Source of the DNA: Balneola sp.
Lineage (GTDB): Bacteria > Bacteroidota > Rhodothermia > Balneolales > Balneolaceae
Assembly (NCBI GenBank): GCA_002696035.1
Contig: NZQV01000021.1
Location: forward strand, 62,001-126,000
Direction of reading: 5' to 3'
Length of the DNA stretch: 64,000 bases
The notes below the pieces were generated by a model. That model was given only the letters and a program-made list of their open reading frames with translations. It did not search any database and had not been told where the DNA came from. Position 1 is the stretch's first letter. The number at the start of each line of letters is the position of its first letter. Of the stretch, positions 5,848-31,083 are shown piece after piece. The translations under genes and the position numbers were made by a program.

Positions 5848-6090
5848 GGATTTAGCCCATACTATAGATCTCCCCGGAAGCAATGAGCAAGCTCAGTCTT
5901 CCTGTCCCTCCAAAGGGACACAGTGTTCTTGCCTATAGTAAAATTGTGGAAGGAAAGCTGAGACGGTTTGCCTTGTCAAGAACGGTCTCTCTTCGAAGAG
6001 AGACCGGATTTAGTTTATACCGAGTATTCGGGAAGAGAAAACCTTTGGTCCTATGGAGTTTCCCCTGACACTACATGCATTTCAGTCCTG
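5848..6090 (+). repeat. structured dispersed repeat, copy A of five
   Basis: First of five same-orientation copies of a palindrome-rich element. Copy A has hairpin H1 (GGAAG-caa-TGAGC-aa-GCTCA-gt-CTTCC, 5876-5902), hairpin H2 (TGTCCC ... GGGACA, 5903-5920) and a perfect 22-nt palindrome H3 at 5984-6005 (GGTCTCTC...GAGAGACC). Its far end (ATGCATTT near 6074) matches the ends of copies D and E. Open frames across it are by-products of the palindromes. Confidence 0.85.
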
Positions 6091-10798: not shown

Positions 10799-10995
10799 GC
10801 TTTATAGCCCTATACCCGCTCCTCCCCGGAAGTAGTGAGCAAGCTCAGTCTTCCTGTCCCTCCGGAGGGACACAGGTTTTCTGGTCGTTGGCTTAGTTGG
10901 TGGTGGAAAGCTGAGATTGTTTGCATGGGCAAGAACTATCTCTCTTTGGAGAGAGACAGGATTTAGTTCCACTAAAATCCAGAGAGAGGACAGTG
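10799..10995 (+). repeat. structured dispersed repeat, copy B
   Basis: Cleanest copy. H1 at 10828-10854 (GGAAG-tag-TGAGC-aa-GCTCA-gt-CTTCC), H2 a perfect 18-nt palindrome TGTCCCTCCGGAGGGACA at 10855-10872, H3 at 10939-10956 (TCTCTCTTTGGAGAGAGA), H4 at 10959-10980 (GGATTTAGT-tcc-ACTAAAATCC with one bulge). CTCTCTTTGGA (10940-10950) can instead pair with TCCAGAGAGAG (10978-10988). Upstream sequence TTTATAGCCC is shared with copies A and C. Confidence 0.9.
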
Positions 10996-11078
10996 CTTGA
11001 TTACGCTTTAAAAACCAAGACTGGCAAAAAAGCATCTTTTTAATTACCATTTTAAAAGTAAAGGGAGGAGGGTACAAC

Positions 11079-11468
11079 ATGAGTAAAAACAACACAAATC
11101 ATCATTACAACAAACAGTTAAAACCAGTTGCTCGAATTCTGAGAAAGAGAATGACGAAGGCTGAAGCAGCGCTTTGGAAGTACGGGCTCAGAAAGAAAAA
11201 GCGGAGAGGATATACGTTCAATCGCCAAAGACCGGTTTTCGGATTCGTGGTTGATTTTATGTGCAAACAGCTCAATCTGATCATAGAAGTAGACGGCAGT
11301 AGTCACGATCATCCTAGAGCCCAAAAAAAGGACAGGGAGCGCCAAGGTAAATTGGAAGATGCAGGTTTTACGATTCTCCGTTTTACGAATCAAGATGTGC
11401 TGAAGAATATGGATTCTGTTTGCAGAAGGATTGATGAGGAGATTGCACTGTTGGAAGTGAAGGAGTGA
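11079..11468 (+). CDS. DUF559 (Vsr-like) endonuclease domain protein
   Basis: A 129-residue stand-alone DUF559 protein, related in fold to very-short-patch-repair (Vsr) and other PD-(D/E)xK nucleases. Visible features: ARILRKRMTKAEAALW (18-33), FNRQRPVFGFVVDFMC (47-62) with Asp59, IIEVDGSSH (68-76) with Glu70/Asp72 and His76, and GFTILRFTN (96-104). The putative metal-binding acidic residues are intact. Biological role of DUF559 proteins is unknown; nicking or mismatch activity is inferred from the fold. It is the only gene between repeat copies B and C, about 80 bp after B and 5 bp before C, an arrangement that invites the idea that it acts on the repeats. Confidence 0.85.
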   Translation: MSKNNTNHHYNKQLKPVARILRKRMTKAEAALWKYGLRKKKRRGYTFNRQRPVFGFVVDFMCKQLNLIIEVDGSSHDHPRAQKKDRERQGKLEDAGFTILRFTNQDVLKNMDSVCRRIDEEIALLEVKE

Positions 11469-11473
11469 GTGAA

Positions 11474-11710
11474 GGTTTTATAGCCTCATACCACACTCCT
11501 CCCCGGAAGTAATGAGCAAGCTCAGTCTTCCTGTCCCTCCGGAGGGACACAGGTTTTCTGGTCTTTAGCAAAGTTGTGGAAAGAAAGTTGAGATTATTTG
11601 CACTGGCAATTTCTGTCCTTCTTTGGAGAGGGCATGCGAAATGAACTTGTTCATACAGCGAGGGAGAGGATATTTGGGGCAAGAAATTGGTCTTTATCTC
11701 CCCACATATT
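11474..11710 (+). repeat. structured dispersed repeat, copy C (degenerate 3' half)
   Basis: Starts about 5 bp after the DUF559 stop. H1 (GGAAG-taa-TGAGC-aa-GCTCA-gt-CTTCC) and the perfect H2 palindrome TGTCCCTCCGGAGGGACA are intact near 11505-11550. H3 is weaker and held partly by wobble pairs (TGTCCTT with GAGGGCA), and H4 is lost and replaced by unrelated sequence, while the distal TTTGGGGC block reappears near 11674. The 220 bp between this copy and the next gene is AT-rich leader with nothing else recognised. Confidence 0.82.
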
Positions 11711-15563: not shown

Positions 15564-15589
15564 ATAAGTGTAGAATGCATAAATGCGGT

Positions 15590-15815
15590 GATCACGCTCC
15601 TCCCCGGAAGTAGTGAGCAAGCTTAATCTTCCTGTCCCTCCGAAGGGACACAGGGGGCCTGATCCTTCTCAAAATTGTTGTTGGAAAGCTGGGATCATAT
15701 GCGTTGGCCAGAGCTATCTCTCTTTGGAGAGAGATAGGATTTGGTTTTACCAAAATCCAGAGAGAGGACTTTTGGGCCGGGGAATTTGTCCTTGGCACGG
15801 CACTCATTTTCACCC
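15590..15815 (+). repeat. structured dispersed repeat, copy D
   Basis: H1 has GCTTA in place of GCTCA, so one pair becomes G-T (G-U in + strand RNA). H2 is TGTCCCTCCGAAGGGACA. H3 is a 22-nt hairpin at 15715-15736 (TATCTCTC ... GAGAGATA). H4 at 15737-15758 is GGATTTGGT-ttt-ACCAAAATCC. TCCAGAGAGAG again follows. The distal block reaching ACTCATTTT (about 15803) matches copies A and E. Confidence 0.9.
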
Positions 15816-19997: not shown

Positions 19998-20211
19998 CCA
20001 GGATCTCGTCTTACCACTGAAACGTACAGTTTGCTCAAACTAACTTTGAAAATGCAAAAGAGTAGTTTTCTTGAAAAAGAAAGGAGTGGTCCGACGAATG
20101 GAATAGGCAGGTGGCTTTATGGCTCGGAAATGATTTTTTGTCTATACAAATCGAAATAGCTAAACAGCCTATCTCTGACTGCTCTGCATTGGACTGGCCG
20201 GCATTGTCGAT

Positions 20212-20440
20212 GGCCACGCTCCTCCCCGGAAGCAACAGCTGAAGCTGATCTTCCTGTCCCTCCGAAGGGACACAGGGGCCTGATCCATCTCAAAATTGTT
20301 GTTAGAAAGCTGAGATCATATGCATTGGCCAGAGCTATCTCTTTGGAGAGAGACCGGATTTAGCTCTGCTATAATCCAGAGAGAGGACATTTGGGGCTTG
20401 GAATTACTCCTTAGCACGTCATGCATTTTAGGCCCTTGCA
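20212..20440 (+). repeat. structured dispersed repeat, copy E (fully compensated H1)
   Basis: H1 at 20228-20254 reads GGAAG-caa-CAGCT-ga-AGCTG-at-CTTCC: all five inner pairs differ from copies A-C yet pairing is complete. H2 is TGTCCCTCCGAAGGGACA. H3 (TCTCTTTGGAGAGA) and H4 at 20356-20377 (GGATTTAGC-tct-GCTATAATCC) are present, followed by TCCAGAGAGAG. The 214 bp before it (19998-20211) holds nothing I can identify, and a partial CCAACACCCAATA-family word follows at about 20478. Confidence 0.9.
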
Positions 20441-26376: not shown

Positions 26377-26416
26377 ATAAAACTCGTTCCGCCGCTCTGC
26401 TGCGGAATGCTCTATA

Positions 26417-26525
26417 GAGGCTCTGCCTCAAACTATAATGACCAAAGATTAATAAAGGTTTGTACTCATTGCGAAGGCCCATCTTCGCAAAGCAGTCAAG
26501 GAAGCTCCGGCATCCCGTTGACCCT
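26417..26525 (+). repeat. GCGAAG-hairpin repeat, copy 1
   Basis: Shares a core with 27691-27815: a GAGGCTCTGCCTC-type word, then TTGCGAAG (26469-26476) pairing with CTTCGCAA (26483-26490), AGCAGTCA and GGAAGCTCCGGC. The last hairpin is broken here (GCATCCC instead of GCTTCCC). The whole 406 bp gap 26377-26782 holds only this element and AT-rich leader; the open frame across it has no protein-like features. Confidence 0.75.
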
Positions 26526-27690: not shown

Positions 27691-27815
27691 TGAGACTCCG
27701 CCTGAAACTAAAAGTAATGCCCACCATACTTGCGACTCTGGAGAGTCGCGTTACTTACTCTCGTTGCGAAGGTCTATCTTCGCAAAGCAGTCAGGGAAGC
27801 TCCGGCTTCCCGTGG
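27691..27815 (+). repeat. GCGAAG-hairpin repeat, copy 2 (three hairpins)
   Basis: Contains GCGACTC-tgga-GAGTCGC (27732-27749), TTGCGAAG-gtctat-CTTCGCAA (27764-27785) and GGGAAGC-tccg-GCTTCCC (27794-27811). The middle and last parts align with copy 1 at 26417-26525. Same orientation as copy 1. Confidence 0.8.
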
Positions 27816-30983: not shown

Positions 30984-31083
30984 ATGACACTGTAATAGTT
31001 AAGCTTATAATGAGTGAACCAGTACTTAGTGTGAGGCAGAGCCTCGGTTTGGCATTCCGGAGCAGAGCACCGGAACGAGGACA

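Follow-up and report, generated by a model that had tools for sequence, protein, structure and literature searches.

The 64,000-nucleotide stretch of Balneola sp. DNA analyzed here (the window, G000:C25:62001-126000, from a host genome of 3.97 Mb) harbors a lone gene for a 129-aa nuclease of the DUF559 family that is flanked on both sides by copies of a hairpin repeat. On balance we favor the view that DUF559 is a mobility nuclease of homing-like type, the one protein encoded by a minimal selfish element that has triplex motifs at its ends. The gene (11079..11468, plus strand) was identified as an open reading frame (ORF), by a profile match and by the modelled fold of a PD-(D/E)XK/Vsr-like nuclease; its product matched PF04480 with E=3.3e-32 and otherwise only the families PF18741 and PF10881.

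Two repeat copies of about 175 bp, B (10817..10991, plus strand) and C (11494..11668, plus strand), form direct repeats on either side of the gene. Copy B, detected by repeat search and by the Rfam model whalefall-1, is a pair of hairpin units arranged as an inverted dimer, with the left one at 10819-10873 (minus strand) and the right one at 10936-10991 (plus strand); copy C is a dimer of the same build with its left unit at 11496-11550 on the minus strand and a degenerate right unit. Compared as direct repeats, the two flanks agreed at 83% over 165 alignment columns with a score of 106, and only one of 959 cross-locus controls exceeded 100 (the six highest were 58.5, 59, 77, 82, 99.5 and 233). 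This confirms that the bracketing of the window gene by direct repeats, which an earlier note on this DNA had described, is well beyond chance. The wording "exactly bracketed" in that note was slightly generous, because copy B ends about 88 bp before the start codon; copy C, placed there about 5 bp past the stop codon, aligns from the stop codon itself and its recognizable core (CTCCTCCCC) starts about 20 bp further on. The other two whole DUF559 genes of the host genome were likewise bracketed, and the three genes had three different repeats.

Bracketing was also frequent in the host family, where DUF559 was present in at least 42 of 57 genomes. The family set comprised 130 DUF559 genes from 40 genomes, 126 of them with readable flanks; fragments scoring <90 or with <80 profile positions were excluded. 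Loci were dropped from the family set (4/130), from a wider scan (10/80, each with a flank of <150 bp before a contig end), from the RAYT-family set (3/30) and from the flank alignment that included the window gene (three with short flanks). Direct repeats bracketed 59 of the 126 genes as compared to 7 of 1224 cross-genome pairings, with 21/24 genes in the genus of the window and 38/102 in other genera of the family. The wider scan covered 80 loci, mostly from Bacteroidota and in addition from Planctomycetota, deltaproteobacterial and other metagenome-assembled genomes; here, 21 of 70 genes were bracketed as compared to 4/828 pairings and 4/119 pseudo-gene placements. RAYT/IS200-type genes of the host family (Y1_Tnp, L224-L253) served as a positive control and were bracketed in 15 of 27 loci, in part by very long repeats (score up to 440). 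The similarity of these rates, the frequent repeat flanks and the pairing of nuclease and repeat reported below lend good support to the comparison with REP elements and RAYT transposases drawn in the earlier note. Contigs ended close to the DUF559 gene at the ten dropped loci of the wider scan (L116, L135, L144, L148, L152, L156, L172, L177, L179 and L183), a pattern that assembly breaks at multicopy repeats would produce.

The right half of two window copies matched whalefall-1 (RF01762) with 48.1 and 47.0 bits at a gathering score of 37, and the host genome contained 26 matches at E≤0.001. The left halves matched on the opposite strand; therefore, a single unit makes up every copy in the form of an inverted dimer. 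This unit is structurally constrained: in 23 own-genome units, 98.5% of the cells of its two hairpins were paired as compared to 43-58% in slid versions, and 67 cells had changed on both sides as compared to 20.8 in shuffles. Across repeat types the unit followed one plan, namely a pyrimidine-rich arm, a short loop, the complementary purine arm, 2-4 nt or a second hairpin, and a further purine arm. The third arm mirrors the second arm instead of copying it, as in GGGAGGAA-TGA-AAGGAGGG. Among 91 hairpins with a near-perfect third arm, the mirror was the better description in 55 and the direct copy in 16, with 20 ties; counted by independent repeat families (31), the figures were 20, 4 and 7 (p=0.0015). 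A near-perfect mirror arm was found downstream 79 times in real sequence as compared to 11/183 in shuffled sequence, and mirror scoring without strand choice, which dilutes the effect, still gave 44 versus 18 loci with six ties (p=0.0013). The plan is that of an intrastrand purine triplex, and judged from its sequence the unit may fold into one. A G-quadruplex was considered as the common feature and not favored, because several repeat types have no G-runs. In window-type units the second loop holds a hairpin of 20-30 nt; in the own-genome copies L040, L041 and L042 a further palindrome (CCCGA...TCGGG type) stood in place of this hairpin or within it, which looks like insertion of palindromes into the second loop.

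A strict detector for the motif (stem ≥7, spacer 1-6, mirror with ≤1 mismatch, unit within 400 bp of the gene) found units near 69 of the 126 family genes, 29 of these on both sides, and near 46 of the 70 wider loci, 21 on both sides. Control counts were 2/123 and 3/78 for distant stretches of the same loci and 2/77 for window tiles (7/278 overall); in RAYT-family loci the count was 0/27. Furthermore, a plasmid collection contained 43 records with a DUF559 relative of YcjD, from which 15 were picked to span diverse taxa (Azospirillum, Sphingomonas, cyanobacteria, Deinococcus, Sinorhizobium, Klebsiella, Photobacterium, Lelliottia and Neisseria). A unit lay within 400 bp of the gene in 14 of these 15, in six on both sides, as compared to 2/15 far away and 1/300 in shuffled flanks. 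At the Deinococcus loci L339 and L335 the units form long inverted ends close against the gene, and no other ORF is annotated inside the compact elements L339, L335 and L340. Inverted ends in Deinococcus, Sinorhizobium and Pseudanabaena loci reached scores of 51, 59.5, 106.5 and 68, the cross-control maximum being 41 (n=182). Terminal inverted repeats were clear in 4 of 14 plasmid-collection loci; the window gene lies instead between two whole dimers.

The type of the nuclease and the type of its repeat were found to be paired. Among 47 same-genome pairs of bracketed DUF559 genes, the repeat was shared in 5/5 pairs at ≥64% protein identity, four of them non-syntenic and the fifth a neighboring pair, and in 0/42 pairs at ≤47% identity (top similarity 34, threshold 40). 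Over the 59 bracketed family loci, non-syntenic pairs showed a median protein identity of 72% when the repeat was shared and of 39% when it was not; a Mantel test of protein against repeat similarity gave r=0.40, a value reached in 0 of 5000 permutations. Repeat types also tracked clades in a nuclease tree built on few columns and with many weak forks. Type-specific repeat searches agree with the pairing but are small: at E<1e-6 the type 3 repeat occurred in 3/57 genomes, the three with that nuclease clade, and the type 2 repeat in 4/57, all of them with the nuclease, with weak matches in G018. The type 2 search missed G040, G046 and G051 (best E none, 9.3e-4 and 1.3e-6), in which the gene is present and the repeats have diverged. 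Matches to whalefall-1 revealed many solo dimers per genome; since the model also matches other repeat types (G032:C37:1500, C19:4611), its counts were not used as proof.

Loci with and without the gene were compared in six genomes of one genus. At locus L294, G017 and G037 carry repeat-gene-repeat and G028 has one repeat at the same place, which is 94.5% identical to the downstream copy, the flanks being 87.6 and 84.3% alike. Locus L271 has repeat-gene-repeat in G037 and G017 and one repeat past the same flank in G028 and G053. Here, the DUF559 genes of G037 and G017 were 98.6% identical with a synonymous divergence (dS) of 0.028, and the repeats were 87-90% alike; comparison ORFs of the two genomes gave a dS of 0.38 (flanking L271) and 0.39 (another locus), so that the value of the gene is about 14 times lower than that of its flank. 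Hence, the gene was passed between the two species long after their split, or converted, via divergent repeats. G028 and G017 furthermore differed by the insertion of one repeat. Ratios of nonsynonymous to synonymous divergence (dN/dS) in eleven DUF559 gene pairs ranged from 0.04 to 0.59, nine of them being ≤0.25, which indicates purifying selection. For Legionella pneumophila, an experimental-evolution study reports recombination hotspots at three segments that contain both a transposase and a DUF559 nuclease (PMC12308824).

A structure model of DUF559 built with 50 sequences had a mean predicted local distance difference test (pLDDT) score of 88.5. It was closest to a putative endonuclease-like protein of Neisseria gonorrhoeae, NGO0050 (3hrl; Z 15.3 at 42% identity), followed by I-Bth0305I, a homing endonuclease (3r3p; Z 12.0, 2.5 Å over 95 residues, Foldseek E 1.7e-3), and by Vsr (Z 9.9); AbaSI, Hjc and TnsA were weaker still. 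Residues D59, E70, D72, H76 and D85 were invariant in the 50 sequences, and E70, D72, H76 and D85 may correspond to the E-D-x-H-D motif. YcjD has already been related to Vsr (PMC1189080), and a DUF559 gene has been assigned to the EDxHD homing family (PMC9403480). These assignments and the fold matches make a cutting role likely for the modelled protein, homing being a known life-style of the fold. A defense system was considered and rejected: in PADLOC the window protein matched restriction-type and other models only weakly and in part, and YcjD had no match.

If DUF559 is a homing-like mobility nuclease, it would recognize its own repeat type, folded or as duplex, and cut the repeat. Repair by recombination between repeats would then copy the gene into gene-free repeat loci, converting a repeat into repeat-gene-repeat; the same recombination could remove the gene and leave a solo repeat, and the solo dimers would represent non-autonomous copies. 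The data show the linkage, the pairing of types, the constrained structure of the repeats, orthologous loci with a solo repeat or with the gene, the recent transfer of one gene and purifying selection; binding, cutting, the direction of movement and triplex formation are inferred. The interpretation in the earlier note is thus partly supported, and its proposal that the nuclease recognizes the folded repeat and drives its spread remains an inference; the mirror third arm, the whalefall-1 and triplex-motif matches and the solo-repeat loci had not been picked up there. DUF559 genes lie very often beside repeats, as that proposal implied, yet repeats persist where the gene is absent, which it did not.

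Several observations weigh against a homing-like element. Bracketing repeats were not found at 67 of the 126 family genes, and 57 of the 126 had no strict motif nearby. G012 had ten weak whalefall-1 matches and no DUF559 among the matches listed, and E. coli genomes without ycjD, the DUF559 gene of this species, keep motif copies elsewhere. At locus L199 the gene is present in three species, and G037 has neither gene nor repeat; therefore, not every gain used a resident repeat. Deletion through ordinary recombination would explain the solo loci just as well as homing would. A 3-bp stretch at one solo repeat may be a target-site duplication, but none was clear. Finally, in vivo footprinting of the triplex motifs as reported gave no support for stable triplexes (PMC4666352).

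Transposition of the RAYT or IS type would have the nuclease process the units as element ends, in single-strand or cut-and-paste fashion, so that the element is excised and inserted instead of recombining with resident repeats. The near-perfect inverted ends close beside DUF559 at loci of Deinococcus, Sinorhizobium and Pseudanabaena, the many solo dimers per genome and the insertion difference between G028 and G017 speak for such a process. We nevertheless regard it as rather unlikely: consistent target duplications were not seen, the two solo-repeat loci fit recombination better, and we know of no transposase chemistry for this fold alone. It is less probable again that the repeats spread by replication slippage and recombination and that DUF559 was captured as a passenger, tolerating or exploiting unstable spots. 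Triplex motifs are tied to instability with no known gene (PMC4666352) and repeats persist in genomes that lack the nuclease, but RAYT-family genes, which are also mobile, have the strict motif at none of their loci, the repeat type follows the nuclease clade, and the compact elements contain no other annotated gene.

A housekeeping function, in which a Vsr-like repair nuclease resolves stalled or folded repeats and is kept for genome stability, would account for the purifying selection and the Vsr-like fold, and genetic data connect VsrA of Caulobacter, itself a DUF559 protein, with a DNA methylase (PMC12907096). The patchy presence, the paralogues, the linkage to repeats, the solo and gene-bearing alleles and a gene younger than its flanks render this explanation improbable. 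Very improbable is an interpretation of the repeat as a non-coding RNA gene that merely neighbors the nuclease; whalefall-1 matches above the gathering score and covariation would agree with it, but the copies are scattered as inverted pairs, repeat types of the same plan have unrelated sequences, and direct repeats stand around the gene. Whalefall-1 has been described as an environmental-only non-coding RNA (PMC2864571); the window units match it above the gathering score, and in the bacterial genomes studied here it is DNA that recurs in many copies and accompanies a nuclease gene, which suggests that whalefall-1 is a DNA repeat and not an RNA gene.

Among known systems, the REPtron (TnpA-REP/RAYT with REP/BIME/REPIN) also combines one small nuclease gene with palindromic repeats of its own on both sides; these occur as inverted dimers and many solo copies, with nuclease and repeat paired. 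The hairpin of REP elements has a tetranucleotide (GTAG-type) foot. The enzymes differ, DUF559 being PD-(D/E)XK/Vsr-like and RAYT a Y1 HUH tyrosine transposase. The window protein did not match the Y1 HUH transposase family (PF01797); since the HUH enzyme is absent, the DUF559 element is not a REPtron. The repeats differ as well: the DUF559 unit has a mirror third arm, and RAYT-family genes of the same genomes carry other repeats. The DUF559 element would nevertheless work like a REPtron and perhaps also like a homing gene. RAYTs as the main movers of DUF559 repeats were rejected, because no DUF559 flank resembled a same-genome RAYT-family flank (score ≥30, 106 loci) and strict motifs were missing from the 27 RAYT-family loci. 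One cluster link joined L230 (RAYT-family, G037) with whalefall-type loci of other genomes, either a score artefact or a nested copy. I-Bth0305I (EDxHD) shares the fold, probably the conserved E, D, H and D, and a patchy, recently transferred gene; DUF559 stands alone, lacks DNA-binding extensions and is found outside introns, and the target presumed for it lies on either side of the gene instead of being interrupted by it. With the mismatch nuclease Vsr, DUF559 has the fold in common, and Caulobacter VsrA ties a DUF559 protein to DNA damage in vivo (PMC12907096); the linkage observed here is to repeats.

The closest match to the repeats are the intrastrand triplex motifs (PIT, TM/TM-ECO; Holder et al. 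2015), of which E. coli has 23 copies with five inverted pairs and which occur in >260 genomes (PMC4666352). They share the order of pyrimidine arm, loop, purine arm, spacer and purine arm, the inverted pairs and the intergenic, multi-copy occurrence. As described there, their loops measure 1-6 nt; units with such loops lay near 69/126 family genes and 46/70 wider loci, and the second loop of window-type units has its extra hairpin. Among these motifs, the one from E. coli alone was demonstrated to fold as a triplex in vitro (PMC4666352). Holder et al. link the motifs to instability and report no transposase or integrase remnants nearby, so that no mobility gene was associated with them (PMC4666352), in contrast to the nuclease gene to which the present repeats are linked. 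E. coli K-12 ycjD is itself a DUF559 gene (E=1.4e-49), present in 3365 of 5426 E. coli genomes. A full motif encloses the last codons of the gene in strain THO-008, and about 170 bp further along stands a second motif in inverted orientation; K-12 has a degenerate version of the first motif and a perfect second one. Three E. coli genomes without ycjD were compared and have an efflux operon at the site, with no motif between the efflux genes and fabI; therefore, E. coli gives no clean empty site. The exchange of ycjD and efflux genes has already been described, apparently with no reference to repeats (PMC12817139), and among the papers listed in our literature searches none connected DUF559 or ycjD to triplex or other repeats.

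We consider it an evenly poised question whether DUF559 and its triplex-motif repeat form a distinct and very widespread class of minimal mobile elements with a single Vsr/homing-type nuclease of ~120 aa, parallel to RAYT/REP with an unrelated enzyme, in which the triplex repeats of E. coli and >260 genomes would be non-autonomous offspring and the nuclease would recognize a three-stranded or mirror-symmetric DNA fold. If so, two puzzles would solve each other, the purpose of DUF559 proteins such as YcjD of K-12 and the identity of the spreader of triplex repeats, and a second nuclease-plus-palindrome strategy, enzymatically unrelated to RAYT/REP, would exist. The question is testable in a laboratory strain, the protein having 117 aa and the oligonucleotide 37 nt.

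The window contains three further, solo copies of the repeat on the plus strand: the diverged copy A at ~5858..6001 (repeat families D2 and D4), copy D at about 15588..15769, whose right unit (15714-15769) is a whalefall-1 match above the gathering score, and copy E at ~20210..20388, whose right unit (20335-20388) is just under it. A second, unrelated repeat set has inverted arms at 26383-26435 and 31027-31079 as well as direct copies at 26465-26518 and 27760-27813 around a group of small ORFs. A clade of DUF559 domains (L065, L100, L207 and L209) lies in unbracketed open frames of ~450 aa and is possibly fused and domesticated.
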